From Kribbella antiqua (GTDB taxonomy: Bacteria; Actinomycetota; Actinomycetes; Propionibacteriales; Kribbellaceae), in the NCBI RefSeq assembly GCF_004345665.1, contig NZ_SLWR01000002.1, positions 248,001-312,000 on the forward strand: a DNA stretch of 64,000 nt, written 5' to 3'. Shown one piece after another: positions 49,171 through 62,679 of the stretch. Made by a program: the position numbers and the translations under genes. The notes beneath the pieces were generated by a model that saw nothing but the letters and a program-made list of their open reading frames with translations, was not told the origin of the DNA and made no database searches. Numbering within the stretch: position 1 is the stretch's first letter; the number at the start of each line of letters is the position of its first letter.

Positions 49171-50340
49171 GTGGACGCCATCCAACCCGCGCCACCACCT
49201 CCGCTGAGCCACTGGCAGTCGACGTGGCGCTACCTCTTCGCCATCGTCTCCGGCGCTGGTTTCTGGGTGACGAGCTACTACAACACCTACGCCGGGGAGA
49301 TCCACGCACTCTGGGCCATCGATCTCCTGCTCGGAGCCGTCGGCGTGGTTCTGATGCGCTGGAGACGCCGTCATCCACTGATCGTGGCCCTGATCGTCAA
49401 CGTCCTCGGATCCTTTTCCACGGCCGCATCGGGGGCCGTGGTCGTCACCACCGTGTCCCTGGCCACTCGACGGCGGTGGCGCGAGATCGTGCCGGTCGCG
49501 GTGGTGGGCTTCGTCGCCTCTGTCGTCTTCTTCGAGACCCACCCCGGTGCCGAGGACTCGTTGCTCTTCTCGCTCTTGTTCACGGTCGTCTTCGTGAGCG
49601 CCGTGATCGCCCCCGGCATGTACATCGGCGCCCGCCGCGACCTGCTGGCCACGCTGCGGGAACGAGCGGACCGCGCCGAACGCGAGCAGAGCCTGCGGGT
49701 CGGACAGGCGCAGGCCACGGAGCGGGCCCGGATCGCCCGTGAAATGCACGACGCACTGGCACATCGCCTGTCGCTGGTGGCATTGCATGCGGGTGCACTG
49801 GAGTACTGCCGGAGTCTCAGCGACGCCGAGGTAGCCAAAGCCGCCGCGATCACCCGGCAGAGCGCCCACCTCGCTCTGCAGGACCTGCACCAGATCCTCG
49901 GCGTACTGCGCACACTCGAAACCGACGCACCACCAGAGCGTCCGCAACCGACGCTGGCCGACCTTCCGGCGCTGGTCCTGGAAGCCGTGGGATCAGGTAC
50001 GAAAGTCCGGTTGCACAACCAGGTCGACAATCTGGCGGAGCCGCCCGACGCGGTCGGACGCGGCGCCTACCGGATGATCCAGGAGAGCCTGACGAATGCT
50101 CGCAAACACGCACCGGACACCGCTGTCGACGTCACGCTCAGCGGTCGGCCGGGCGGGCAGCTGATGCTCGAGGTACGGAACCCGCTGCGGCTCGGCTCCG
50201 CCGGGGTGAGCGCGACGCCCGGCTCGGGTCTCGGGCTGCTCGGACTGACCGAGCGCGCTGAGCTGATCGGTGGCCGCCTCGAGCACATGAGGTCCGACGG
50301 AGACTTCGTGGTCCGCGCCTGGCTGCCGTGGCCGGCATGA
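49171..50340 (+). CDS. Sensor histidine kinase (HisKA_3 type)
   Basis: A 389-residue kinase. The N-terminal 150 residues hold about five membrane helices. A cytoplasmic dimerisation helix follows with phospho-acceptor His193 in IAREMHDALAHRLSLVALHA. The ATP-binding domain has MIQESLTNARKHAPDT (N-box) and GSGLGLLGLTERAELIGG (G-box). GTG 49171 lies directly after the right arm of the inverted repeat, with no clear ribosome binding site free of it. Its stop overlaps the response regulator start (ATGA). Confidence 0.92.
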   Translation: MDAIQPAPPPPLSHWQSTWRYLFAIVSGAGFWVTSYYNTYAGEIHALWAIDLLLGAVGVVLMRWRRRHPLIVALIVNVLGSFSTAASGAVVVTTVSLATRRRWREIVPVAVVGFVASVVFFETHPGAEDSLLFSLLFTVVFVSAVIAPGMYIGARRDLLATLRERADRAEREQSLRVGQAQATERARIAREMHDALAHRLSLVALHAGALEYCRSLSDAEVAKAAAITRQSAHLALQDLHQILGVLRTLETDAPPERPQPTLADLPALVLEAVGSGTKVRLHNQVDNLAEPPDAVGRGAYRMIQESLTNARKHAPDTAVDVTLSGRPGGQLMLEVRNPLRLGSAGVSATPGSGLGLLGLTERAELIGGRLEHMRSDGDFVVRAWLPWPA

Positions 50341-51011
50341 ACGACGCTGCCGGTACGTCGATCCGGGTCGTGATCATCGACGACGACGCGTTGGTGCGCG
50401 CCGCACTCGCGATGATCCTGCGGGACGACGCCGCGATCGAGCTGGCCGGTGAAGCAGACGACGGCCAGGCCGGGCTCGATCTGGTCGCGCGGGTCGGGCC
50501 CGACGTCGTACTGATGGATATCCGGATGCCACGCCTGGACGGCCTCGAGGCCCTCGCACGGCTCATGGGTCAACCAGCACCGCCCAAAGTGATCGTGCTG
50601 ACGACGTTCGACGCCGACGACTATGTGCTGCGGGCGCTCCGCGGTGGAGCCAGCGGGTTCCTCCTCAAACACACCCCGCCCGCGCAGATCGTCGAGGCGG
50701 TGCACAAAGTTGCCGCCGGCGACCACATGCTCTCCCCCAGCGTGACCGCCCAACTGATCGCCCAACTGGGTGACGACGAGCCGGAACCCCAGCGGGTCCT
50801 CCACGCGCAGTCGCTGACCGGGACCTTGACCGACCGCGAACGCGAAGTGGCCATCGCGGTCGGCGAAGGCAAGATCAACGCGCAGATCGCCGACGAGCTC
50901 TACCTGAGCATGGCCACCGTCAAGGCGCACGTCTCGCGCATCATGATGAAGCTGGAAGCCACCAACCGCGTGCAGATCGCGAACCGCGTCCACGACGCAG
51001 GCCTGCTCTGA
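50337..51011 (+). CDS. LuxR/NarL-family response regulator
   Basis: A 224-residue regulator with acidic Asp15-17, phospho-acceptor Asp61 in VVLMDIRMPRLDG and Lys in GFLLKHTPPAQ. The C-terminal helix-turn-helix is LTDREREVAIAVGEGKINAQ then LSMATVKAHVSRIMMKLEA. ATG 50337 overlaps the kinase stop as ATGA; a GTG nine bases upstream is possible but less likely. The divergent ABC exporter operon is the probable target. Confidence 0.93.
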   Translation: MNDAAGTSIRVVIIDDDALVRAALAMILRDDAAIELAGEADDGQAGLDLVARVGPDVVLMDIRMPRLDGLEALARLMGQPAPPKVIVLTTFDADDYVLRALRGGASGFLLKHTPPAQIVEAVHKVAAGDHMLSPSVTAQLIAQLGDDEPEPQRVLHAQSLTGTLTDREREVAIAVGEGKINAQIADELYLSMATVKAHVSRIMMKLEATNRVQIANRVHDAGLL

Positions 51012-51048
51012 GCTGTACGGTGCCTTCGCCGCGGCTCCTCGCTAGGCC

Positions 51049-51699
51049 TCAGGTGAATTTCAATCCGTTGAGCATCGTCTCGAACTCGGTGAAGAACGCC
51101 GCGACGTCACCGGCGCCTTTCTCCGCCCGTGCCCAGGCGAGCAGCGTCTTCCCGCCGACGTCGATCACCGCGATGCGCAGCGAGAGATCGGGCTGGAGTC
51201 CGAAGCACTCCTCTGCCGGGGTGTTGAGCTCCGCACACCCCAAGGCACCGTCGAGGGGGTCTGCGGCGCTGCCGGTCAACACGGTCGCGGGGTGGCCGTC
51301 AACGGTTGTCGCCACCTCGTCCGCATACGTCGCCCCGTACGCGGTCAGTCCCCGAAGGTAGGCCAGGTAGTCCTGGGGCGGGGCTACCGGCCTGAGTTGC
51401 TTCGGCTTGTACAGGTTGACGGGCAGCACGAATCGGACCTTGTTGTTCTCGGCGAGATTCGAGTCCCAGCTCAGCAGCGTGGCGTTGTCCGGATTCGCCG
51501 CGATCTTGAGGTCTTCCGGCAGCGTGACCGTCAGCGCTATCGAGAAGGCCTTGCTCGCATACATCCGTGCACCGACGGTGGTGGTCGGGGGCGGAGTCGT
51601 CGGCGAGTCGCCGCTGCAGGCTGAGGACGCGAGTACCAAGAGCGAAGTGGCAAGGATCGCAGCCCTCCGGCGGATTGAAGCGGGTGTGAATGCTGACAT
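51049..51699 (-). CDS. Lipoprotein of unknown function
   Basis: A 216-residue secreted protein. The basic N-terminus, hydrophobic segment and lipobox SSAC (Cys28) indicate lipid anchoring. A Pro/Thr-rich linker (TTPPPTTTV) precedes a globular domain with FSIALTVTLPEDLKIAANP, VDGHPATVLTGSA and FTEFETMLNGLKF, a layout seen in actinomycete LpqN/LpqT-like lipoproteins. No catalytic motif is visible. Its stop lies 37 bp from the convergent response-regulator stop. Confidence 0.82.
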   Translation of the reverse strand: MSAFTPASIRRRAAILATSLLVLASSACSGDSPTTPPPTTTVGARMYASKAFSIALTVTLPEDLKIAANPDNATLLSWDSNLAENNKVRFVLPVNLYKPKQLRPVAPPQDYLAYLRGLTAYGATYADEVATTVDGHPATVLTGSAADPLDGALGCAELNTPAEECFGLQPDLSLRIAVIDVGGKTLLAWARAEKGAGDVAAFFTEFETMLNGLKFT

Positions 51700-51863
51700 C
51701 TCGGCCCCCTAGCCAGGGGGAATCTGAACAAGCGATTGCCCGCCCCCTTGTGAATCCGCCCCGCCCTCGACCCTGCGCCCTCGATGCCCACATCGCAAGG
51801 TCGGGGCGTCACGCATTTCGCCAGCCCGGTCGGGGCAGTGAGGTGTACCTCGCCTTCGCTGCG

Positions 51864-52658
51864 TCAGTGAGCGGGTCGTTGGTGGTGGGTGAGGCCCCGG
51901 ACGCCGCGGACGGGGGCCTCCAGCATGTAGATCGCGGAGCGGATCGCCGAAGAGTGCCACACGTTGCGCCACCTCGACCATTGGCGTCTCCTGTCCACGC
52001 AGACGACCTTGGTGTCGACAGCTGCTCCCGGATGACCGAAGTGTGCTGCGACGTTGCCGAGGGTCTGGCTCCAGAATCGGTCCTCCTGGCGATGGCCGCC
52101 CATCATCAGGGCCAGTTCGAAGATCGGGTCCGAGGCGCGCATCAGGACCTGCGTCTGTACGACGGTCGCGTCGTCCTGCCGCGATGCGCTGAACGTGATC
52201 CAGCCGGCGAACATGTGACCCTGTGGGGTCATCAACGTGAACGACTCCTCGTCGGCGTACAGCACCATCACACCGGTCGACAGCTTGGTGCCGCCGGGCA
52301 TCCGCATGTTGAGGAGAGCGACGTCGCCAGGTTCGATGCCGGTGAGCGGTGCGTAGAAGTGGTTGCCCGGCGGCCAGAAGTCGCCGAAGTCCTTGCGCCA
52401 GGTGGCGATGAGATCGGCCGGCGCGACACGATCGGACGGTAGCCGCACCACGTAGGTCTTCTGCCACATCTTGCCGAACCCCTGGATCGGGCTGGTGAGC
52501 TGGCGACCGTCCACGTTGAGGTTCACGGCGCCCTCGGGCACCTGGGAGACCTTCAGCCGCGAGACCTTCTTCGCCCAGTTGGCCGCGTCGCGGGTGGCCG
52601 CGGCGGGCATGTCGTCGTTGCTGCCGGCGGGCGTGTCGTCGTTGCTGCCGTTGGTCAT
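51864..52658 (-). CDS. Conserved-type protein of unknown function, last gene of the PP2C/STAS operon
   Basis: A 264-residue cytoplasmic protein. A short polar N-terminus with two DD(T/M)PA repeats leads to a globular domain with FGKMWQKTYVVRLPSDRVAP, YAPLTGIEPGDVALLNMRMP and MLYADEESFTLMTPQGHMFA-like strands, resembling an SRPBCC/START-type cup. This is a visual impression and not a firm family call. Near the C-terminus MMGGHRQEDRFWSQTLGNVA is distinctive. It lies 13 bp after the STAS gene, so it belongs to the same operon. GTCATGGCG marks ATG 52658; a longer frame to 52847 overlaps the STAS gene and is rejected. Confidence 0.78.
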   Translation of the reverse strand: MTNGSNDDTPAGSNDDMPAAATRDAANWAKKVSRLKVSQVPEGAVNLNVDGRQLTSPIQGFGKMWQKTYVVRLPSDRVAPADLIATWRKDFGDFWPPGNHFYAPLTGIEPGDVALLNMRMPGGTKLSTGVMVLYADEESFTLMTPQGHMFAGWITFSASRQDDATVVQTQVLMRASDPIFELALMMGGHRQEDRFWSQTLGNVAAHFGHPGAAVDTKVVCVDRRRQWSRWRNVWHSSAIRSAIYMLEAPVRGVRGLTHHQRPAH

Positions 52659-52671
52659 GGCGTGCGCTCCT

Positions 52672-53022
52672 CTATGCCGCGCCGGTCGCGGCCAGCGCAT
52701 CCTGTTCGGTGTCGTGGATACCGATCGCCTCGTCGAGGCGGGTGAGCTCGAAGATCTGGCGGTAGTGCTCGGACAGGCCGTACGCCAGCAGCCGTTGCGA
52801 ACGTCGCCTGGCGCGCACCAGCAGGGTGACCAGCAGCCCGATGCCACCGCTGTTCATGTACGACAGTCCGGTGAAGTTGAGGATCACCGCCGTGATGTCG
52901 CCGGTGCTCTCGTAGGCGTTCATGAGCACCTCCTCCGACCCTGCCGTGACGTCGCCCTGGATGTCGACGACGCCGGCCGTCCCCTTCCGGCGTACGTCGA
53001 AGGTCGCTGTTGCCTCAGCCAT
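52672..53022 (-). CDS. STAS-domain anti-anti-sigma factor (copy 2)
   Basis: A 116-residue single-domain STAS protein of the SpoIIAA/RsbV type. The phosphorylatable serine is in LSYMNSGGIGLLVTLL. In partner switching the unphosphorylated form binds an anti-sigma or other switch kinase, and phosphorylation by that kinase releases it. The ATG overlaps the end of the other STAS gene by 8 bp. YESTGDITAVILNFTGL gives the usual central strand. Confidence 0.9.
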   Translation of the reverse strand: MAEATATFDVRRKGTAGVVDIQGDVTAGSEEVLMNAYESTGDITAVILNFTGLSYMNSGGIGLLVTLLVRARRRSQRLLAYGLSEHYRQIFELTRLDEAIGIHDTEQDALAATGAA

Positions 53023-53380
53023 CTTTGTCCCCTCCTATGCCTTGTACGGCGCTGTCCTCGTCGTTCTCGATCGCCATGAAGTCGGCCAGCCGGGTGATCT
53101 CGAAGATCTTGCGGTAGTGGTCGGTGAGGCCGTACGCCCGGATCGGGATGCGGTGTGCCCGCGCACTGGCGAGCAGGCCGACCACGAGCGCGATGCCGGT
53201 CGAATTGATGTAGCCGCTGTTCTCGAAGCTGAGCACCACGGCATCGGGGCGCGTGTTCGTCGCGGCGGTCCAGGCCTCGTCCAGTGCTGACTCGGCCGCG
53301 GCGTTGAGATCACCGACCAGTTCGATGACCGCTACGCCGTCGCGCCGGCGTACGTGGGCGACCGCTTCACGTGTCGTCAT
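53015..53380 (-). CDS. STAS-domain anti-anti-sigma factor (copy 1)
   Basis: A 121-residue STAS protein with the serine in SGYINSTGIALVVGLL. It is clearly related to its neighbour (shared YGLTDHYRKIFEITRL versus YGLSEHYRQIFELTRL), so the pair arose by duplication. Its ATG overlaps the phosphatase gene stop by 14 bp. It should be dephosphorylated by the adjacent PP2C protein. Confidence 0.9.
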   Translation of the reverse strand: MTTREAVAHVRRRDGVAVIELVGDLNAAAESALDEAWTAATNTRPDAVVLSFENSGYINSTGIALVVGLLASARAHRIPIRAYGLTDHYRKIFEITRLADFMAIENDEDSAVQGIGGDKDG

Positions 53381-55004
53381 CGTCGCCTCCTTCCTTCGAC
53401 TCCGGTTCGAGGTGCATGACGAGCTCGACGGTGTGGCGTTCGCCGTCGCCGGTCTCGCGCGCCTCGTCGACCATGTTCTTGATCAGGAACAGTCCCCAGC
53501 CACGAGGCCGCTGCAGTCCTGCGAGCTTCGCCTCCAGGTCGGGCACCTCGGCCTGGCCGGGCGCCAGGCGGGCGCCACCGAGGTCGGCGACCTCGACGCG
53601 GATCCGGCCGGGTTCGGCGTACACGCGGACCGTGACCGGACGGTCGGCGCGGTACGAGTTGCCGTGCTCCATCGCGTTCATCGTGGCCTCGGCGACCGCG
53701 GTCTCGAGCCGGCGGAGCCGGGCCGGCGCGAGGCCGAGCGGGACGACCGTGGCGGCGACTCGTTCGAGAGCCATCCGCTCGTTGCCCTCGACACTCGGCA
53801 CCTCGAACTCGACGAGCAGCTTCCCGATGACCTTGCCGTTGGGGCTGTCGCTCTGAGCGGGCTCCCGTTGCAGCACGACCATGGTGATGTCGTCCTCCTG
53901 CTCGGCGTCAGGTCCGGTGTGGGCGTGCAGATCCGCGAGTACCAGGTCGATCAGCTCGCCGCCGCCCGGGTAGCGCGCCACCAACTCCTTCAGGCGCGGG
54001 AAGCCGAACATCTGTCCCTGTGGATCGTGTGCCTCGACGATGCCGTCGGAATGCAGCAGCAGCGACTCGCCGGGCGCGAGAAGGGTCTCGCGTTCCTCGT
54101 ACTTCATCCCGGTCATCAGACCCAGCGGCATGCCGCGGGCGCGCAACTCGACCGAGCCCTCGGCAGTCTTGACGTACGGCAGGTCGTGGCCGGCGTTGGC
54201 GAACCGGAAGTGACCGGTGGCCGGGTCGAGAACGCCATACAGGCAGGTGACGAACATCTTCGCCGGCATGTCCGGGCAGAGGTGTTCGTTGACCCGCTCG
54301 AGTACGGCGCCCGGGTCGATCAGTCGTTGGGCGGAAGCACGCAGCACGCTCCGGGTGGCGGCCATCACCAGCGCGGCCGGTACGCCCTTGTCGGTGACAT
54401 CGCCGATGACGAAGCCGACTTGGCCGCCGGCCAGTGGGATGACGTCGTAGAAGTCGCCGCCCACCTCGCGGGCCGGTTGGTAGCAGGCCGCGACCTGCCA
54501 GCCGGACAATTCGGGAAGCGTCTTGGGCAGGAAGTTCTGCTGGATCAGCCGGGCGACCTCGAGCTCCTGCTCGAAGCGCTGGCGGGTGCGGGCCTCAGCC
54601 TGTTGCTGGCGGACCAACTGGCCGACCCGCAGGGCCGGCGCGGCCTGCGCGGCGAGGTTGTCGAGCAGCTTGCGGTCGTCGCTGGAGTACTCCTGCTCAG
54701 ACCGGCGCGGCCCTAGGTGCAGTACGCCGATCAGCTCGCCCTGGCTCACCAGCGGCACAGCGAGCTTGACGCCCGCGGCCTTGAGCTCTGCCAAGGCGGG
54801 CGAGTCAAGCTCTAGCGCCTCCACGTCTACCGCGCCGCTGGCGCTTTGCAGGTAGGCCAGGAGCGGATCGTTGGGTGCGATGTCGACCGGAGTCGCCTCG
54901 TCGTCCGGCACCGGATGCGAGCGCTGCTCGGGCACCCGGTGGCCTGCTCCGGCGGCGGTTCGCCTGCGGAGGCGGCGGAAGGTGCTGCTCAATGCGACCA
55001 TCAC
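53367..55004 (-). CDS. GAF - PP2C (SpoIIE/RsbU) phosphatase - HATPase_c fusion
   Basis: A 545-residue three-part signalling protein. Residues about 35-165 resemble a GAF sensor (AVPLVSQGELIGVLHLGPRR). A coiled coil then leads to the PP2C core with metal-binding Asp in VGGDFYDVIPL, GDVTDKGVPAALVM, LLLHSDGIVEAHD and EQEDDITMVVL. Residues about 405-535 form an RsbW-like ATP-binding domain: VAEATMNAMEHGNSY (N-box), RVEVADLGG and RGWGLFLIKNMVDE. It can thus both dephosphorylate a STAS protein and, in principle, rephosphorylate it. GTG 55004 or ATG 55001 is the start, 8-12 bp after the fourth membrane paralogue's stop at 55014. Confidence 0.93.
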   Translation of the reverse strand: MMVALSSTFRRLRRRTAAGAGHRVPEQRSHPVPDDEATPVDIAPNDPLLAYLQSASGAVDVEALELDSPALAELKAAGVKLAVPLVSQGELIGVLHLGPRRSEQEYSSDDRKLLDNLAAQAAPALRVGQLVRQQQAEARTRQRFEQELEVARLIQQNFLPKTLPELSGWQVAACYQPAREVGGDFYDVIPLAGGQVGFVIGDVTDKGVPAALVMAATRSVLRASAQRLIDPGAVLERVNEHLCPDMPAKMFVTCLYGVLDPATGHFRFANAGHDLPYVKTAEGSVELRARGMPLGLMTGMKYEERETLLAPGESLLLHSDGIVEAHDPQGQMFGFPRLKELVARYPGGGELIDLVLADLHAHTGPDAEQEDDITMVVLQREPAQSDSPNGKVIGKLLVEFEVPSVEGNERMALERVAATVVPLGLAPARLRRLETAVAEATMNAMEHGNSYRADRPVTVRVYAEPGRIRVEVADLGGARLAPGQAEVPDLEAKLAGLQRPRGWGLFLIKNMVDEARETGDGERHTVELVMHLEPESKEGGDDDDT

Positions 55005-55013
55005 AAGCCCTTT

Positions 55014-56219
55014 CTACTGACCTGTCGTCCGGGAATCGTTACGGTCGTCGGTTCGCAGCCACAGCGACACATGGGTCGGCTGCATGGTGTCGTGTACGAC
55101 GTTGCGCAGATCGGTGGCCAACGCCTGCAAGTCGAGTTCATGGCGCAGCCGCACGCCGAACGCAGCCAGCGTGCGGGCGGCGTCGTACCTGCGGCGGAAG
55201 AAGCGTCGGTCGACGACGGCCTGGATCCGCGAGCGCACGGGGCGGAACAGGGCCGCGACCGCGAGAGTCGACACCGCGACGGCCGGGCCCGAGCCGTGTG
55301 TCACCGGACGCAACAGCAGTTGGAGGATGAGCACGCTGCCCAGATATCCGGTGGCCAGCGTGACGGTCAGGGCGCCGTACACGATCGTGCGGTTGATCAC
55401 CACGTCGACGTCGTAGAGGCGATGGCGCAGGATGCCGATGCCGGTCGCGACGGGCAGACCGAGAATGCTGAGCATGATCGCGGCGTTGGCCACGGCGGGC
55501 GTGAGGAGCTCGTAGCCGGCTGTGCCGATGGCGATCGTCGCGGCGGCCAACGCGCCCGCCCAGACCAGCCATTTGATCTGCTGGCGTTGCACATAGCCCG
55601 CTCTGCGGAACCGCAGAATCAGCGCCAGCGGCGAGGCGATGAGTACGCCGAGCACCACCAGCGCAGATACACCCTCACCTACCGTCCGGACGACGCTGTC
55701 GATCGCGAACGGGTTCGTGAGCCCGGGGAAGTCCTCGAGCGCACCCGGCTTCGTACCCGCCGTCACGAAGGATCCGGTGATTCCGAGCGCAGCGCACCAC
55801 GCCACCAGACGCCAGCGATGGGAAGGTAGGCGGCCGTCAGGGAACAGCAGGGGCAGGTAGGCCGCCGGCACCAGGACGACCGGAATCCACGAGACCGTCG
55901 CATACCCAGCGGCTGCTTCGGCCAGGGAACCGGCGGAACCTGCCTCGACCTGCCCGTACTCGGCATAGCTGCTGGCCACGGCCCCGAGCCCGTTCACCAC
56001 CGCGGAGGCGAGGAAGATCCAGCCGATCGGATTGTGCGGGTGCCGTCGCGCGATCAGGATCCCGACGGTGCAGAACACCAGCACCATCACAACAATCAGG
56101 TCTCCCCACCCCAACCCGATGGTCCCGGCGGCGGCAGTCAGACCGATCGCGATCGCGGTGAACGCCACGGCCACGCCGCCGAGCGTCCAGGCCAGGAGCG
56201 CTGCCGTACGGGCGCTCAT
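55014..56219 (-). CDS. Sensor-like membrane protein without kinase core, paralogue 1
   Basis: A 401-residue protein with about ten hydrophobic helices in the first 320 residues (for example GWGDLIVVMVLVFCTVGILI) and a cytoplasmic C-terminal tail. The tail has the signature VVDRRFFRRRYDAARTLAAF, a helical segment, and HDTMQPTHVSLWLR at the end. This tail is found in actinobacterial membrane sensor kinases just before the GAF or kinase part, which is missing here. IGWIFLASAVVNGLG and VDVVINRTIVYGALTVTL are shared with paralogues 2-4. The start overlaps paralogue 2 by ATGA. Confidence 0.82.
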   Translation of the reverse strand: MSARTAALLAWTLGGVAVAFTAIAIGLTAAAGTIGLGWGDLIVVMVLVFCTVGILIARRHPHNPIGWIFLASAVVNGLGAVASSYAEYGQVEAGSAGSLAEAAAGYATVSWIPVVLVPAAYLPLLFPDGRLPSHRWRLVAWCAALGITGSFVTAGTKPGALEDFPGLTNPFAIDSVVRTVGEGVSALVVLGVLIASPLALILRFRRAGYVQRQQIKWLVWAGALAAATIAIGTAGYELLTPAVANAAIMLSILGLPVATGIGILRHRLYDVDVVINRTIVYGALTVTLATGYLGSVLILQLLLRPVTHGSGPAVAVSTLAVAALFRPVRSRIQAVVDRRFFRRRYDAARTLAAFGVRLRHELDLQALATDLRNVVHDTMQPTHVSLWLRTDDRNDSRTTGQ

Positions 56220-57385
56220 CGCGGCCTCCGCAGCCACAACGACACGTGGGCCGGCTGCATGGTGTCGCGTACCACGGATTGCAGGTCGTTGCCCAGCGCA
56301 TCGACATCCAGTTGGTCTCGCAGCCGGGCGCCGAAGGCCGCCAACGTTCGGGTGGCGTCGTACTTGCGCCGGAAGAACCGCCGGTCCACCACGGCCTGGA
56401 TTCGCGACCGGACCGGCCGGAACAACGCCGCGACCGCGAGCGTCGACACTGCCACGGCCAGGCCGGAGTCCGAGGTCAGCGGGCGCAGCACCAGCTGCAG
56501 CAGCAGGACGCTGCCGACGTACGCCGCACCCAAGGACACCGTCAGACCGCCGTAGACGAGCGTCCGATTGACCACGACGTCGATGTCGAACAGCCGGTAC
56601 CGCAGGATCGCGATCCCGGTCGCGACCGGCACGGTGGCAAGTGCAAAGGAGGGGATCAGTTCTCCGTAAGGCGCGGTCGCCGGTCCGCCCACCGTCTCCA
56701 ATACGGCCACTGCGCAGAGGGCGACGGCGACGAGCATCCCGGCGTACATGAGCCACTGGATCTGCTGGCGCTCCACCGTCTGCGAGGTGCGGTAGCGGAT
56801 CACCAACGACAGGATGGAGGCTGCCACTGCGATCAGCAGGGCGACTATTCCCGCCGCCCTCAGCGGAGTCCACAGGTCGATGCCGACGTGGACCCCGAAC
56901 GGGTTGTCCGCCGCGACGTCCTCCATCGGTCCCGGTGCGAACGCGGTGGTGACGAACAGGGCCAGGAAGCCACCAATGGCGAGCCATGCGACCGGACGCC
57001 AGCGCCTGGACGGCAATCGGCCGGTCGGAAAGAGCAGCAGACCGAAGGTTGGCGCCAGCCACACCGGTAGCCAGGCCCAGGTCGAGAACCAACCGATCAC
57101 CAGGGCGGGCTGGTCCATGCCCCGCCGGGTGAGCTCGTCGGCCGCGTAGCCGGCGGATCCCACCAGCACCGAACTCACTCCGGGCAACAGCAGAATCCAG
57201 CCGATCGGATGGCTGGGGCGCTGCGACACGATCAGCGCGCCGACCGAGACGAAGGCCAGGACGAACACCAACCAGCCGGCGGACGTCGGGATCCCGTCGC
57301 TGCTGGTGACCTCGTCCACCAAGTCAACCGCCGGGACGCTGACCGCGAGCAGCCAGAGCAGACTGATCGGTACCCACCGCTTCAT
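56216..57385 (-). CDS. Sensor-like membrane protein without kinase core, paralogue 2
   Basis: A 389-residue member of the four-gene array, with the IGWILLLPGVSSVLVGSAGY and FDIDVVVNRTLVYGGLTVSL blocks and the tail VVDRRFFRRKYDATRTLAAF ending VRDTMQPAHVSLWLRRPR. The N-terminal loops (VDEVTSSDGIPTSA, GYAADELTRRGMDQPA) differ most from the other paralogues, which suggests different sensed signals. ATG 57385 overlaps the paralogue 3 stop (ATGA). Confidence 0.82.
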   Translation of the reverse strand: MKRWVPISLLWLLAVSVPAVDLVDEVTSSDGIPTSAGWLVFVLAFVSVGALIVSQRPSHPIGWILLLPGVSSVLVGSAGYAADELTRRGMDQPALVIGWFSTWAWLPVWLAPTFGLLLFPTGRLPSRRWRPVAWLAIGGFLALFVTTAFAPGPMEDVAADNPFGVHVGIDLWTPLRAAGIVALLIAVAASILSLVIRYRTSQTVERQQIQWLMYAGMLVAVALCAVAVLETVGGPATAPYGELIPSFALATVPVATGIAILRYRLFDIDVVVNRTLVYGGLTVSLGAAYVGSVLLLQLVLRPLTSDSGLAVAVSTLAVAALFRPVRSRIQAVVDRRFFRRKYDATRTLAAFGARLRDQLDVDALGNDLQSVVRDTMQPAHVSLWLRRPR

Positions 57386-58581
57386 CGCGAACCCCGCAAC
57401 CACAGCGTCACCTGGGTGGGCTGCATGGTGTCGCGTACCACGGATTGCAGGTCGTTGCCTAGCGCATCGACATCCAGCTGGTCTCGCAGAAGGGCGCCGA
57501 ACGCCTGCAGGGTACGGGCGGCGTCGTACCGGCGGCGGAAGAACCGCCGATCCACCAAGAGCTGGATCCGTCGTCGCGCCGGGCGGAACAACGCCGCCAC
57601 CGCGAGCGTCGACATCGCGACCGCGAGGTCCGACCCCTGGGTCATCGGGTTCAGCACGAGTTGGAGGAGCAGCACGCTCCCGAGGTACGACGCACCCAGC
57701 GTCAGGGTCAGCGCGCCGTACACGAGGGTCCGGTTGATGACGACGTCGATGTCGTACAGGTGATGACGCAGGATCGCGACGCCGATGGCCAACGGCAGGC
57801 CGACCAGGACCAGCGCGACGAGCGACCACCAGGCGATCAGGGCAGCCACGTTCAGCCACGGTGGGAGATCGTCACCCGCGACCAGGCTAACCACCGCGAG
57901 AACGACGAATGGAACGAGCGCCAGCATGCAGACGTAGGCGAACCACGTGACCTGCCGACGCTCGCGACCGCGTGATCGCCGCAGTCGCAGGACCAAGGAG
58001 ACGCCACCGAGTACGAGTGTGCCGGCCGCGAGGAGTTCGCCGGCGCCGGACAGCCAGGAGAGCGCGCCGCCAACGGGTCCTCCGACGCCGAGCGGGTTGT
58101 GGATCGGGCGGTCTGCGGGGATCTCGAGAACGCCGGGCGCGAAAGCGGTCCCGACCACGTTGGCCGCGACAGCACCGATGCCGAGCCCGACGACAGTCCG
58201 CCACCGTCGCGACAGCAACCTGCCGGCGGGGAAGACCAAGGTGAGGAACAGGGCTGGGAGATAGAGCCACACGAACAACAACCAACTGGTGAGCCACCCC
58301 GCCCACGCCGCGCCGGGGGACGACGCCCGACTGGCGTACACGGTCATGAAGGTGTCGAGCCCGAGGGCAACGGCGGCGACGAGCAGGAGCCATCCGGCGG
58401 CATTGGCGGGTTGCCGTGACGCGACCAACGCACCGACGAGCGCGAAGCCGATCCCGATCGCGACCAGCGCGTCGGACGCATTCCCGTGCCGAACCGCCAC
58501 CAGCACAGGCGTTGCCAAGGCCAGGATCACGAAGAACCCGAAGAGGCTCCAGGCGAGCCACTTGGCGACACGGCCGCTCAT
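57382..58581 (-). CDS. Sensor-like membrane protein without kinase core, paralogue 3
   Basis: A 399-residue member of the array. Helices begin at WLAWSLFGFFVILALATPVL, and YDIDVVINRTLVYGALTLTL is conserved. The tail VDRRFFRRRYDAARTLQAFG and VRDTMQPTQVTLWLRGSR ends without a kinase domain. Its region between helices (VFPAGRLLSRRWRTVVG) keeps the FP-GR-LPSRRWR pattern shared by all four. ATG 58581 overlaps the paralogue 4 stop. Confidence 0.82.
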   Translation of the reverse strand: MSGRVAKWLAWSLFGFFVILALATPVLVAVRHGNASDALVAIGIGFALVGALVASRQPANAAGWLLLVAAVALGLDTFMTVYASRASSPGAAWAGWLTSWLLFVWLYLPALFLTLVFPAGRLLSRRWRTVVGLGIGAVAANVVGTAFAPGVLEIPADRPIHNPLGVGGPVGGALSWLSGAGELLAAGTLVLGGVSLVLRLRRSRGRERRQVTWFAYVCMLALVPFVVLAVVSLVAGDDLPPWLNVAALIAWWSLVALVLVGLPLAIGVAILRHHLYDIDVVINRTLVYGALTLTLGASYLGSVLLLQLVLNPMTQGSDLAVAMSTLAVAALFRPARRRIQLLVDRRFFRRRYDAARTLQAFGALLRDQLDVDALGNDLQSVVRDTMQPTQVTLWLRGSR

Positions 58582-59810
58582 CGGTCGGCCTTTCGCAGCC
58601 ACAGCGTCACGTGGGCCGGCTGCATGGTGTCGCGCACCACGGCCTGGAGATCGGTGCCGAGGGCATCCAGATCCAGCTGCTCTCGCAACCGTGCACCGAA
58701 CGCCTCCAGAGTCCGGGCCGCGTCGTACCGGCGCCGGAAGAACCGCCGGTCGACCATCGCCTGGATCCGCGACCGCACCGGGCGGAACAGGCCTGCCACC
58801 AAAAGTGTCGACACCGCCACCGCGAGGCCGGATCCCTGCGTCACCGGGCTCAGAACCAACTGAAGCAACAAGACACTGCCGACGTACGCCGCACCCAGTG
58901 TCACGGACAGAGCGCCGTACACCAGTGTCCGGTTGATGACGACGTCGATGTCGTACAGGCGATACCGCAGGATCGCGACACCGACGGCCCACGGGATGGC
59001 CAGAAGCAAAACCGCGAAGGCCAGCTCGGACACCGGGATGCCGCCGACGTGAAGGTCGGTGAATGACAGCGCCGTCGTGACGGGAATGGACCCGATCAGC
59101 AGGGCCCCGAGGTAGAACATCCAGGAGATCTGCAGCCGTTCCACTCCTCGCGACCGCCGGAAGCGAACCGCGAGAGCCACCAACCCGAGGATGAGCCCGA
59201 CACTGAGGGCGGGTGCGGCAACGTCACCGACTCCCGACATGACGGAGCTCGATACCGGGAACGGGTTCGAGACCGGGAAATAGTGCAGCTCACCCGGCGC
59301 GAGTACCGTCCCGACGACGTACGCCGCCACGTCGAGCGCCACCGCCCACACGAGCCATCGCCATCTCCGCGACGGCACGTGCCCGGTCGGGAAGAGGACG
59401 AACACCAGGAGCGACGTCGCCGCGACGGCCGGCCAGATCACCGCATCGGCGATCAGAGCAGCCCAGGCGCCGCCGGGCAGAGTGCCCGGCGCGTGGAGCA
59501 GCGCGTAGGCGCCGTATTCGAGCAATGCCTGCGCGAGGGTGTTCCCGAGACCGGTGGCGAGGAACAGCCAGCCGATCGCGTTGTCTGGTTGCCGTGCGGT
59601 GATCACCGCACCGACGGTGGGAAAGCCGAGGATGGCCACGTCGACCACGGCATCCAGCGAGCCGTACGAACCCGCCGGCCGGGCATGTCCGTTGATCACG
59701 AAGAGTACGAGCGCGACTGCGGTGAGCACGACGCACAGTCCCCACACCGACCAGGCCAGACGGGCAGCACCCATTCGGACCACCACTGCGCCCCCTCCCC
59801 CTGCAGGCAT
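58578..59810 (-). CDS. Sensor-like membrane protein without kinase core, paralogue 4 (first gene of operon)
   Basis: A protein of up to 410 residues. ATG 59810 has GAGG four bases before it and gives a Gly-rich leader; the ATG 33 bp downstream (MGAARLAWSVWG) is an alternative start after a purine-rich stretch. The body has ten or so helices, IGWLFLATGLGNTLAQALLE, YDIDVVINRTLVYGALSVTL, and the tail VDRRFFRRRYDAARTLEAFG to MQPAHVTLWLRKADR. It heads the eight-gene operon and is divergent from the SARP-type regulator. Confidence 0.82.
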   Translation of the reverse strand: MPAGGGGAVVVRMGAARLAWSVWGLCVVLTAVALVLFVINGHARPAGSYGSLDAVVDVAILGFPTVGAVITARQPDNAIGWLFLATGLGNTLAQALLEYGAYALLHAPGTLPGGAWAALIADAVIWPAVAATSLLVFVLFPTGHVPSRRWRWLVWAVALDVAAYVVGTVLAPGELHYFPVSNPFPVSSSVMSGVGDVAAPALSVGLILGLVALAVRFRRSRGVERLQISWMFYLGALLIGSIPVTTALSFTDLHVGGIPVSELAFAVLLLAIPWAVGVAILRYRLYDIDVVINRTLVYGALSVTLGAAYVGSVLLLQLVLSPVTQGSGLAVAVSTLLVAGLFRPVRSRIQAMVDRRFFRRRYDAARTLEAFGARLREQLDLDALGTDLQAVVRDTMQPAHVTLWLRKADR

Positions 59811-59860
59811 GGAACCTCTGATTCCCCGATGAACGACACGTTCGCAGTCGACCGTGCAAG

Positions 59861-59872
59861 AATCGTTACGGT
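59861..59872 (+). repeat. 12-bp word AATCGTTACGGT, one of three same-strand copies
   Basis: The identical 12-mer occurs at 29682-29693 (end of recD), 55034-55045 (end of membrane paralogue 1) and here, between the divergent operon and the SARP-type gene. Two of the three copies bracket the four-paralogue array. The role, if any, is unknown. Confidence 0.4.
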
Positions 59873-59919
59873 TTCGGTGCGCGGTCCGCCGCGCCGCCGG
59901 CGCACGGGGCGGGGGTGTG

Positions 59920-62679
59920 GTGATCGAGGTCAGTCTGTTGGGTCCGCCTCGGGTCGAGCGGGCCGGAATGCTTGTCGGGTTCGACACCCGCAAGGCGGTG
60001 GCGCTGCTCGCCCATCTGGCCCTGGCCGACCGGCCGCGCCCGCGGGACGCCCTGGCTGATCTGCTGTGGCCGGACAACGACATCGAGCACGCCCGCGGTG
60101 CGCTGCGGCGGACCCTGTCCACGCTGCGCACCGCGATCGGGGCCGAGTCTCTGGAGACCACCCGCGATCACGTCCGCCTGATCAAGGGCCAGGGCCTGTC
60201 CGTCGATGTCGACCGCTTCCGGGACCTGGTGACCGAGGGCGACCTGCACACGGCCATCGGCCTGTTCCGCGGCGACTTCCTGGAGGGTTTCGGTCTGCGG
60301 GACTCCCCCGGCTTCGAGGATTGGGCGCGTAACCAGGCCGACACTTTGCGCCGCGAACTGACGGGCGCTCTTGCACAACTGGCTGCCGCCTTGGAGGAGG
60401 CCGGCGATTATTCGGCCGCCCTTGTGCACGTACGCCGCTGGCTGGCGCTCGACCCCTTGCACGAGCCGGCGCATCGCGCGCTCATCCGGCTGCACGCGCT
60501 CACCGGGGATCGGGCCGCGGCGCTGGTCCAATACCGCCAGTGCGTCCGCACTCTCTCCCGCGAGCTGGGGGTTTCGCCGCTCCCCGAGACCACCGAGCTC
60601 TACGAGGCCGTCAACACAGGCAAGCTCTTCGTGTCGCCGCCAACTGCGGAGACCGCGGAGACTCCGGCGCAGGAGACCCAGACACCGTTCGTCGGGCGGC
60701 ACGACGACATCCGTGCCGTCCGCGCGGTCTACGACGCGATCGATCATGACGGCCGGCTGGTCGTGGTCGAGGGCGAGGCCGGCATCGGCAAGACTCGTCT
60801 GGTCGAGGAGCTGCTCGTCGACCTCCGCAAGAACGGCGCCGCCGTACTGACCGGCCGGGCGTACGAGGACGAGGCAGCGCTGGCGTACGCGCCACTGGTC
60901 GACGCGCTGCGGGCCCGGTTGCGCGAGGACGCCCGCTGGGTCGACGACGTACCGGACCAGACGATCGCCGAGGTGTCCCGGCTCCTGCCAGAAATTGCCG
61001 ACGCCCGGCCTGAGCCCCAGGCCGAGGGCCCGGGAGCCGAAGCCAGGTTCCTCGCCGCCGTATGGGACACCCTCGCCGCGGCGGTGTCCGGACCCGTCCC
61101 CGGCGTGATCCACATCGACAACGCGCACTGGCTCGACGAGGCGTCCTTGGTTCTGCTCAGGTACGGCCTTCGCCGACTCGCGGGCCGGCCGCTGCTCATC
61201 ACGCTCACCTGGCGAACCCCCGCCGACCACCCGGTCAGCAGCGTCGTCGCGGAGGTTGCGCGAGGTGGTGGCGCCGTCCGCCGGCTCGGACGGCTGGACG
61301 TGGACGCGATAGGTGAGCTGCTGGCCGCCGCGCGCCCCTCGATGGACCGCGAACTGTTGCGCAGGTTGTACGACGAGACCGAGGGCGTGCCGCTGCTGGT
61401 CGTCGAATACCTCAACGCCCTCACAACCGGTGCCGACGAGAGCTGGCCGGTGCCGACCGGCGTCAACGACCTCCTGCGCGCACGCCTCGACAGGGTCAGC
61501 GACACCGGCATGCAGGTACTGGCCGCCGCGGCGGTCCTCGGGAGATCGTTCGACGTCGACACGGTCCGTGCGGTCAGCGGGCGTACTGACGAGGAGACCG
61601 TCGCCTCGCTGGAGGAACTGGTACGCCGCGGGCTGATCCGCGAAGGAGCCCTCGACTACGACTTCGTCCACGACCAACTGCGAAGACTCGTGTCCGACGA
61701 CACCAGCCTTGCCCGGCGCCGACTGCTGCACGCCCGGGCGGCCCGCGCCGTTCACGGCCCGGCAGCAGTCGTTGCCCATCACCTCCAACTCGCCGGCCAT
61801 GACCAGGAGGCCGCCCAGGCCTACGCTGCCGCCGCCGGCCAAGCCCGCAAGGTCTACGCCAACGCTGAGGCCCTCGAACACCTTCACGCAGCGCTGGCGC
61901 TCGGGCACGACAGTCCGTCCACGCTGCACGCCTCGATCGGAGACCTCGAGACGCTCGCCGGAAACTACACCGCCGCCGTGCGCAGCTACGAACTGGCAGC
62001 CGCCGACGCACCCGCCGCCGACCTGCCCGGGATCGAACACCGCCTGGGGCGCCTGCGTCACAGGCGCGGGGAATGGGCACTCGCGGAGGCACATTTCCGC
62101 GCTGCATTGGAAAACCTGCCGCCCGGACAACCTGCCGAGCAGGCTCGCATCACAGCCGACATGAGCCTCACCCGCCACAACGCCGGTGACGTGGCCGGTG
62201 CGACGGAACTCGCCCGCCAGGCACTCGCGTTCGCCACCGATTCAGGTGACCGACGAGCCCTCGGCCAGGCACACAACATGCTCGGCATGCTCGCGACCGC
62301 CGACGGCCGCATCGACGACGCCTTCCAGCATCTCAGGACCGGCCGCGACCTCGCTGAGCAGATCGGCGACCTGCCCGGCCGCGTCGCGGCGCTGAACAAC
62401 CTCGCCCTCGCCCATCGTGCCCACGGAGAACTGGAACCCGCGCTCGAACTCGCCAACACCGCGCTCGCGCTTTGTACCGAGGAGGGCGACCGCCACCGCG
62501 AGGCCGCGTTGCACAACAACCTCGCCGACCTGCACCACGCCCTCGGCCACCACGACGAGACGATGCGACACCTGAAGTCAGCGGTGGCGATCTTCGCCGA
62601 GGTGGGCGCTCCGCACGGCACGAACATCGACCCCGCCGACGAACCCCGTCCAGAGCTATGGAAACTCGTCCGCTGGTAA
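59920..62679 (+). CDS. SARP-type regulator: winged helix - BTAD - AAA ATPase - TPR
   Basis: A 919-residue AfsR/DnrI-type activator. Residues 1-95 are an OmpR-like winged helix (IEVSLLGPPRVERAG and LADLLWPDNDIEHARGALRR). The BTAD domain (about 100-235) contains HVRRWLALDPLHEPAHRALI and QYRQCVRTLSRELGVSPLPE. The ATPase domain has FVGRHDDIRAV, Walker A EGEAGIGKTRLV (Lys291) and VIHIDNAHWLDEASLVLL. The C-terminal 300 residues are TPR repeats, such as ALNNLALAHRAHGELEPAL. GTG 59920 (or 59917) follows a G-rich stretch; the longer frame to 59854 gives an Arg-rich tail unlike SARPs. It probably controls the divergent operon. Confidence 0.9.
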   Translation: MIEVSLLGPPRVERAGMLVGFDTRKAVALLAHLALADRPRPRDALADLLWPDNDIEHARGALRRTLSTLRTAIGAESLETTRDHVRLIKGQGLSVDVDRFRDLVTEGDLHTAIGLFRGDFLEGFGLRDSPGFEDWARNQADTLRRELTGALAQLAAALEEAGDYSAALVHVRRWLALDPLHEPAHRALIRLHALTGDRAAALVQYRQCVRTLSRELGVSPLPETTELYEAVNTGKLFVSPPTAETAETPAQETQTPFVGRHDDIRAVRAVYDAIDHDGRLVVVEGEAGIGKTRLVEELLVDLRKNGAAVLTGRAYEDEAALAYAPLVDALRARLREDARWVDDVPDQTIAEVSRLLPEIADARPEPQAEGPGAEARFLAAVWDTLAAAVSGPVPGVIHIDNAHWLDEASLVLLRYGLRRLAGRPLLITLTWRTPADHPVSSVVAEVARGGGAVRRLGRLDVDAIGELLAAARPSMDRELLRRLYDETEGVPLLVVEYLNALTTGADESWPVPTGVNDLLRARLDRVSDTGMQVLAAAAVLGRSFDVDTVRAVSGRTDEETVASLEELVRRGLIREGALDYDFVHDQLRRLVSDDTSLARRRLLHARAARAVHGPAAVVAHHLQLAGHDQEAAQAYAAAAGQARKVYANAEALEHLHAALALGHDSPSTLHASIGDLETLAGNYTAAVRSYELAAADAPAADLPGIEHRLGRLRHRRGEWALAEAHFRAALENLPPGQPAEQARITADMSLTRHNAGDVAGATELARQALAFATDSGDRRALGQAHNMLGMLATADGRIDDAFQHLRTGRDLAEQIGDLPGRVAALNNLALAHRAHGELEPALELANTALALCTEEGDRHREAALHNNLADLHHALGHHDETMRHLKSAVAIFAEVGAPHGTNIDPADEPRPELWKLVRW

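Follow-up and report, generated by a model that had tools for sequence, protein, structure and literature searches.

Organization of the operon

The stretch of DNA analysed here, hereafter the window, is 64,000 nt long (Kribbella antiqua contig NZ_SLWR01000002.1, positions 248,001 to 312,000) and forms part of an 8.1 Mb genome. Its open reading frames (ORFs) include a minus-strand operon of eight genes arranged head to tail, in which four membrane sensor paralogues (P1–P4) precede a gene for a phosphatase-kinase with partial GAF, PP2C and HATPase domains (hereafter the phosphatase), two STAS genes and a gene for a START-fold protein (Table 1). We consider it moderately probable that these genes encode a hub-and-spoke partner switch built on a split sensory domain, with several membrane sensors for one shared phosphatase-kinase. 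The observed basis is the gene layout, a common stopping point of the sensors, natural sensor-phosphatase fusions, co-occurrence across genomes, the GAF fold modelled for the joined pieces, and the company kept by a SARP regulator and the START-fold gene.

An earlier note on this DNA had described four tandem membrane paralogues with ATGA overlaps, leading within about 10 bp into a GAF-PP2C-HATPase gene, followed by two STAS genes and an unknown one, with a divergent SARP-type regulator. All of these are present where it placed them. The overlaps P1/P2, P2/P3 and P3/P4 are 4 bp each, and 12 bp separate the TAG stop of P4 from the phosphatase ATG at 55001, with GTG at 55004 a possible alternative start. 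The phosphatase and STAS1 frames overlap by 14 bp and those of STAS1 and STAS2 by 8 bp; a gap of 13 bp then precedes the START-fold gene. We found no terminator- or promoter-like site in 51000–60300 (sigma-70-type consensus only), a range that includes 55005–55013, where the earlier note had set a break against its own reading. The four sensors are 46–50% identical overall and 71–82% identical across the last 110 alignment columns; STAS1 and STAS2 are 38% identical. Neither P1–P4 nor the START-fold gene product matched any Pfam or NCBIfam family, HisKA and HATPase included in the case of the sensors.

Pfam assigned SpoIIE, HATPase_c_2 and partial GAF domains to the phosphatase. Among 25 aligned sequences, PP2C residues D183, D201, D319, D370 and D371 are invariant, as are E438, N442 and H446 of the HATPase domain, which scored 66.3 bits against a cut-off of 27.4. 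NCBIfam anti-sigma kinase models fell far below their cut-offs for this domain, and we do not claim it as an RsbW or SpoIIAB equivalog. Both STAS proteins lie above the PF01740 cut-off. The motif NSxG was seen in 79 of 79 first copies and 74 of 74 second copies, and its conserved serine is a putative phosphorylation site. That no separate anti-sigma kinase lies nearby, as previously remarked, is right for the window, although the HATPase of the phosphatase protein can fill the kinase role; a scan of 10 proteins at and around the operon showed no sigma factor, though the search for one did not extend to other parts of the window or genome. In four Rubrobacter-type loci (L115, L116, L118 and L119) and one from Chloroflexota (L215, genome G419), the HATPase is encoded in a separate frame that follows and overlaps the PP2C frame. 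Phosphatase and kinase are seemingly separate proteins in these loci, which fits a kinase able to act by itself.

Table 1. Features of the operon and its divergent neighbour, in window coordinates
Feature	Coordinates	Strand	Basis or remark
P1, membrane sensor paralogue, 410 aa	58578..59810	-	9 hydrophobic segments (Kyte-Doolittle); start possibly further in
P2, membrane sensor paralogue, 399 aa	57382..58581	-	9 hydrophobic segments (Kyte-Doolittle)
P3, membrane sensor paralogue, 389 aa	56216..57385	-	9 hydrophobic segments (Kyte-Doolittle)
P4, membrane sensor paralogue, 401 aa	55014..56219	-	8 hydrophobic segments (Kyte-Doolittle)
Proposed N-terminal GAF piece (helix and first strand), end of P1	58593..58673	-	Alignment with P4 and fusions
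Proposed N-terminal GAF piece, end of P2	57394..57474	-	Alignment with P4
Proposed N-terminal GAF piece, end of P3	56228..56308	-	Alignment with P4
Proposed N-terminal GAF piece, end of P4 (model helix 42–57, strand 62–66)	55056..55130	-	AlphaFold2 joined model; GAF fold match
Partial GAF - SpoIIE/PP2C - HATPase protein, 544 aa	53367..55001	-	Pfam; conserved columns
Proposed rest of GAF, phosphatase N-terminus	54618..54875	-	Pfam GAF_2 88–135/136, GAF_3 52–127/129, GAF 65–133/133; model
SpoIIE-type PP2C domain	53865..54428	-	PF07228, E 2.2e-52
HATPase domain (RsbW-like by family)	53418..53744	-	PF13581, E 3.4e-18
STAS protein 1, motif NSTG	53015..53380	-	Pfam
STAS protein 2, motif NSGG	52672..53022	-	Pfam
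Predicted START/SRPBCC-fold protein (the "unknown" gene), 264 aa	51864..52658	-	AlphaFold2, mean pLDDT 89.6; fold matches
SARP-type regulator: BTAD, AAA_16, TPR	~59920..62679	+	Pfam; divergent, conserved partner

Sensor tails and the GAF domain

A genome scan returned 172 stretches, of which 109 were confirmed relatives and 80 were kept; with two more Kribbella genomes, these make 82 loci. Dropped before counting were L026, L027, L028, L030 and L032, which come from the same genomes as L044, L040, L041, L042 and L043, and L033, with a partial phosphatase match. The nearly identical L045 and L047 were both retained in locus counts. Considering sensors whose match has more than 100 bits and reaches at least position 374 of the 386 in the model, 177 of 181 stop no more than 45 aa after the proposed first GAF strand (median 6 aa; 61 of 82 loci). 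It had been noted that the paralogues keep the tail that precedes GAF and kinase parts in membrane sensor kinases and end there. More than a linker ahead of the GAF domain, this tail apparently forms the domain's opening part.

The four sensors that extend beyond 45 aa include two natural fusions to the phosphatase, L110 (979 aa) and L112 (1050 aa), each encoded by one long reading frame. PF01590 matches residues 378–541 of L110 and 463–616 of L112, covering profile positions 2–130 of 133 with 26.9 and 23.8 bits, respectively (cut-off 22.4). The short-sensor model, matched to its end, stops at residue 403 in L110 and 488 in L112. The GAF domain of the fusions therefore begins 25 residues before the sensor stopping point and runs on into the phosphatase part, to which its remainder belongs. 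The spacer in the fusions, ∼50 residues, is about as long as the two free ends of the split proteins taken together (for P4, 12 residues plus ∼40 of the phosphatase). No single polypeptide of the split form covers the start of the GAF profile, as the phosphatase matches the later part only and the sensors have no Pfam match. In both fusion genomes (G488 for L110, G392 for L112), a second frame of 616–657 aa joins a sensor end (model 287–393) to half-GAF and PP2C; its match to the phosphatase model ends at ∼358, before the HATPase part is reached.

To model the two pieces together, the P4 tail was read through its TAG stop (rendered as Q) into the phosphatase N-terminus, and the resulting 244-aa sequence was aligned with 123 related pieces. 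AlphaFold2 returned a mean predicted local distance difference test score (pLDDT) of 83.7 and a predicted template modelling score (pTM) of 0.74. The tail helix (42–57) and strand (62–66) have a pLDDT of about 90, and the half-GAF is also confident. Searched against solved structures with Foldseek, the model matched nearly exclusively GAF proteins, with 12 matches at E 0.001 or better. These are GAF proteins of the sensor kinase, phytochrome and phosphodiesterase kinds, aligned across both pieces (e.g. 23–236). In the predicted structure, then, the two pieces form a GAF-like fold when joined. This fold, taken with the GAF boundaries in the fusions, suggests that one sensory GAF domain is divided between many sensors and one phosphatase, and the separate chains would complete it on meeting. 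Among the papers listed in searches of open-licence PubMed Central texts, none dealt with a split GAF domain or with this gene set.

Across 149 sensors, the region between the last membrane part and the C-terminus (residue 256 on, P3 numbering) is the most conserved, with a mean identity of 0.39–0.68 per 15 residues versus 0.13–0.47 before it. Between the five orthologous sensor groups of Kribbella, the last 50 aa are 76% identical and the body 31%. Gene conversion of the tails was considered and rejected: tail identity between Kribbella paralogues is no higher within genomes (0.759, 47 pairs) than between them (0.765, 328 pairs), which indicates that the tails are kept by selection. The two segments that precede the tail show comparable identity (73% and 81%). 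Hence, the constraint applies to the whole juxtamembrane part plus tail and not to the tail alone.

These data bear on another explanation, in which the tail is merely left over, or is a dimerisation coil of a kind general to membrane sensors, the short GAF of the phosphatase folds alone or by swapping within the phosphatase dimer, and the sensors work by another route, for example by pairing with full sensor kinases. In its favour, ten other sensor relatives in the same genome lie in long frames, and the four of these that were scanned are histidine kinases; many GAF domains, moreover, dimerise through end helices. Against it stand the place of the tail among the best conserved parts of the sensors, the shared stopping point, the fusions (which join exactly the sensor and half-GAF pieces), and the near absence of short sensors where no split phosphatase is found (see below). 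We regard it as unlikely.

Distribution of the sensors and the phosphatase

The order phosphatase-STAS-STAS-START is found in 67 of the 82 loci (a single START gene in 56, two in 11), and several of the remaining loci are cut by contig ends. The module occurs in Chloroflexota and Actinomycetota. Because this order recurs in loci from several phyla, the operon is not a chance arrangement. Sensors lie directly upstream of the phosphatase in 38 of 82 loci. Where ∼10 kb is available on both sides, 29 of 32 loci have a sensor, and the exceptions (L074, L098 and L102) hold short sensors elsewhere in the genome. The L098 genome, a metagenome-assembled genome (MAG) titled complete, has its phosphatase at 0.21 Mb and six short sensors at ∼0.75, 1.0, 1.9, 3.5, 3.7 and 3.7 Mb.

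Co-occurrence of phosphatase, sensor and SARP was assessed by genome scans in which the best candidates per genome were scored, using thresholds of our own choosing. In Kribbella, all 8 genomes that carry the phosphatase have short sensors, against 0 of the 30 that lack it; based on their genome handles, we took these 38 genomes as lying within the 293-genome phosphatase scan. All 31 sensor matches above 280 bits fall in the eight phosphatase genomes, with three to five in each. The other two matches at E 1e-45 have 171 bits (L016, a full histidine kinase) and 165 bits. Each of eight phosphatase-bearing genomes contains exactly one full-length phosphatase (at least 787 bits; next best in any, 506) and at least two short sensors. 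Many sensors per one phosphatase, the layout proposed in the earlier note, is thus well supported; as to how they meet, that note had the sensors acting in some unspecified way on the GAF part, and a split domain seems the better description.

Of 201 Chloroflexota genomes sampled (the phylum of the L098 genome), 14 have the phosphatase at E 1e-100, split in 12 (including G456, where it is in pieces) and fused in two (G392 and G488). Counting sensors at E 1e-55 or better, short sensors are present in all 12 split-phosphatase genomes and in one of the 189 others (G463). The stop of at least one sensor was read in seven of the 12 (G303, G316, G356, G384, G419, G456 and G485) and lies no more than 28 aa past the model end; the other five (G293, G326, G448, G480 and G496) were judged from matches ending at 393–394 of 394 in frames of 405–539 aa. 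Some genomes in this sample, such as those of L098, L058, L110 and L112, also contributed to the alignments behind the models. The L058 and L112 MAGs are titled Proteobacteria despite their inclusion in the Chloroflexota sample, and MAG incompleteness applies. No short sensor was detected in the fused genomes down to E 1e-5, sensors there occurring only in frames of 616–1050 aa. The Kribbella genes are linked and hence not independent, which makes the scattered Chloroflexota sensors the better evidence. In neither scan were the paralogues found mostly alone, away from PP2C and STAS neighbours, an outcome that the earlier note had held would count against it.

Apparent short sensors in phosphatase-free Chloroflexota were read individually (24 matches listed in 16 genomes), and only that of G463 proved true. 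The G495 match departs from the model ahead of the tail and stops after another 46 aa, and the other 22 continue for 107–319 aa. Eight long or odd sensors were scanned with Pfam: four have a GAF part, one of them with a kinase, and four, including that of G495, matched no family at E 0.1. One of these eight loci is split by an apparent frameshift. Five kinase-less sensors from phosphatase-free genomes (L194, L195, L196, L197 and L198, in G415, G423, G387 and G395) extend 107–141 aa past the shared part and represent another kind of short sensor; L197 and L198 match GAF in the extra part, and the remaining ones gave no Pfam hit at E 0.1.

The sensor and phosphatase genes could also be joined during translation. 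P4 and the phosphatase are in one frame, separated by a single TAG, in the window and in all seven other Kribbella module loci, so that read-through of the stop would yield one fused sensor-phosphatase alongside three free sensors. Outside Kribbella, however, 10 of 31 adjacent pairs are in frame, in line with the chance rate of one in three, and all three stop codons are used. Within 12 bp, the phosphatase is also provided with an AAAGGG that resembles a ribosome site and with start codons, and in other genomes the sensors are unlinked. Given the random frame outside Kribbella, we dropped read-through as very improbable, and we judge the in-frame single TAG in all eight Kribbella module genomes (window 55014–55004) to be chance, inherited by descent.

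Several observations weigh against a GAF domain divided between sensors and phosphatase. One concerns the phosphatase, which on its own matches GAF profiles only from profile positions 52 (GAF_3), 65 (GAF) and 88 (GAF_2) onward. This late start was considered as proof of a split, but unsplit relatives (L017, L025, L181, L197 and L198) also match GAF profiles only from positions 37–92. A short match is therefore no proof of a missing piece, a point in favour of the leftover-tail explanation. The late start not being special to the phosphatase, it is weak evidence, and the case for a split is carried by the two fusions, the joined model and the common stop of the sensors. As for the joined model, residues ∼68–118 are of low confidence and the second GAF strand may be absent. 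VIA-align Z-scores reach 12.7 (176 residues, root-mean-square deviation (rmsd) 3.9), and values under ∼13 can reflect a common arrangement in models with long helices, of which the joined model has two. The prediction was made for one covalent sequence and came with no predicted aligned error (PAE) between the parts, so that the fold does not extend to assembly of separate chains. Outside Kribbella, the higher likeness of tails within a locus is also present in control segments and is not counted as evidence. In a mirror-tree analysis (45 loci; near-duplicates L040–L044, L029 and L047 excluded), the correlation between tail and half-GAF, given PP2C and HATPase, was 0.32 and was nearly as high for control segments (0.27–0.28); with the controls added, it was 0.18 for tail and half-GAF versus 0.22 with PP2C. 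Finally, G463 has a true short sensor, at a contig end, and no detected phosphatase.

Candidate output and proposed mechanism

The divergent regulator matches PF03704 (BTAD), PF13191 (AAA_16) and TPR families, the BTAD/AAA/TPR combination of large SARPs. Its N-terminus, with the first 100 residues present, matched no OmpR-type DNA-binding Pfam family at E 0.1, and its score against the AfsR equivalog (73 of 1430 bits) is far below the cut-off. Of the 82 loci, 36 have a SARP of more than 150 bits, as do 21 of the 32 whose flanks are long; in 32 of the 36 it lies on the opposite strand to the phosphatase. At E 1e-80, all 8 phosphatase-bearing Kribbella genomes have the SARP, against 0 of the 30 that lack the phosphatase. 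In Chloroflexota, a SARP of at least 445 bits was found in 11 of the 12 genomes with a split phosphatase, G485 being the exception, and in two of the 189 others, G416 and G322, where frames of ∼700 aa are matched along the first 690 residues only. The fused genomes, G392 and G488, gave no SARP match at E 1e-80. In three Chloroflexota genomes, the linked SARP scored 617–660 bits, against no more than 206 for any second copy. The SARP, being conserved and module-specific, probably belongs to the system and is the leading candidate for its output. The final target, previously described as open, is thus not wholly so. The SARP is nonetheless absent from 11 of the 32 loci with ∼10 kb on both sides, and the links from STAS to SARP, and from the START-fold protein to anything, come from neighbourhood and co-occurrence alone.

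The last gene of the operon, earlier called unknown and indeed without a Pfam family, is predicted to encode a START/SRPBCC helix-grip fold at residues 61–211, with extra ends (AlphaFold2). Its structural matches include KanY (Z 12.3, rmsd 2.9, 139 residues), PYL2 (Z 11.6) and many START proteins; these matches are of similar Z, as are the GAF matches of the joined model, and we claim no closest relative in either case. One homologue of this gene scored 18.6 bits against DUF1990, below the cut-off of 23, and the window protein gave no match. Plant PYR/PYL receptors regulate PP2C phosphatases. A START protein beside a PP2C recalls that pair, but this is only a suggestion, perhaps reflecting convergence, as PYR/PYL proteins are among many equal matches.

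That the STAS, START and SARP genes keep the same company could mean that the sensors act on the system by a route other than the GAF domain, for example by recruiting a STAS or START protein at the membrane, while the half-GAF binds something else. Both natural fusions place the sensor before the half-GAF, and not before STAS or START, and we find this route improbable.

In the hub-and-spoke switch that we favour, sensors with different membrane and outer parts would all end in one common piece, the initial helix and strand of a GAF domain, whose remainder would form the start of the shared phosphatase-kinase. A sensor would supply the missing piece, complete the domain and recruit the phosphatase to the membrane. 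The signal would then travel along the long helical linker to the PP2C dimer, as in RsbU and its relatives. By analogy with its families, PP2C would remove, and the RsbW-like HATPase add, phosphate on the conserved serine of both STAS proteins. To judge from conserved linkage, the divergent SARP may read the STAS state, through a path between the two that we infer, and the START-fold protein may be a further, perhaps ligand-binding, partner. The sequence of sensor signal, GAF completion, linker ordering, PP2C activation and STAS dephosphorylation is drawn from RsbU/RsbV/RsbW and from what one paper says of PPM phosphatase dimers, namely that N-terminal sensory domains, GAF among them, control these through coiled-coil linkers (PMC12143880). 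A more specific version is fragment complementation, with the GAF domain permanently divided, receptors competing for or sharing the hub by completing its fold, and a STAND-type SARP as output in place of a sigma factor. We see this as a real possibility, somewhat short of probable.

The module resembles RsbU/RsbV/RsbW, the partner switch of the general stress response, in having a PPM phosphatase, an RsbW-kind HATPase, a STAS antagonist with a conserved serine, and a helical linker between sensory domain and phosphatase (PMC12143880). It differs in that phosphatase and kinase are in one protein, two STAS proteins are present, several membrane sensors serve as input, and a SARP is conserved, with no sigma factor among the ten proteins scanned. 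Rv1364c of M. tuberculosis and OsaC of S. coelicolor are likewise phosphatases with PAS/GAF input, Rv1364c being fused to anti-sigma and anti-anti-sigma domains; in the same paper, their sensory domains are listed as N-terminal in the same protein, not shared with separate membrane proteins (PMC12143880). RsbQ-RsbP is a two-protein sensory module with one protein separate from the phosphatase and signalling via a coiled coil (PMC3183031). There, RsbQ is a hydrolase contacting a PAS domain, whereas here every membrane sensor seemingly carries a piece of the sensory domain, and one phosphatase has several such sensors. Membrane sensor histidine kinases have a related membrane region, which in some continues into GAF and kinase; unlike these, the short sensors stop early, with no HisKA or HATPase match.

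Bringing several signals into one output usually involves more than one kinase or a hub complex like the stressosome. If our proposal is correct, a cut sensory domain that any receptor can complete would offer a simple, evolvable route for adding inputs to one switch. SARP regulators, best known from antibiotic control, would gain a possible upstream phospho-switch. Two families of the module, that of the short sensors and that of the START-fold protein, have no Pfam match in the window.

Judging from translations alone, the end of the operon is adjoined by histidine kinase-like and response regulator-like genes and then by a small lipoprotein-like gene, the one of the three that was scanned, without a Pfam match; these lie at 49171–51011 (plus strand) and 51049–51699 (minus strand).

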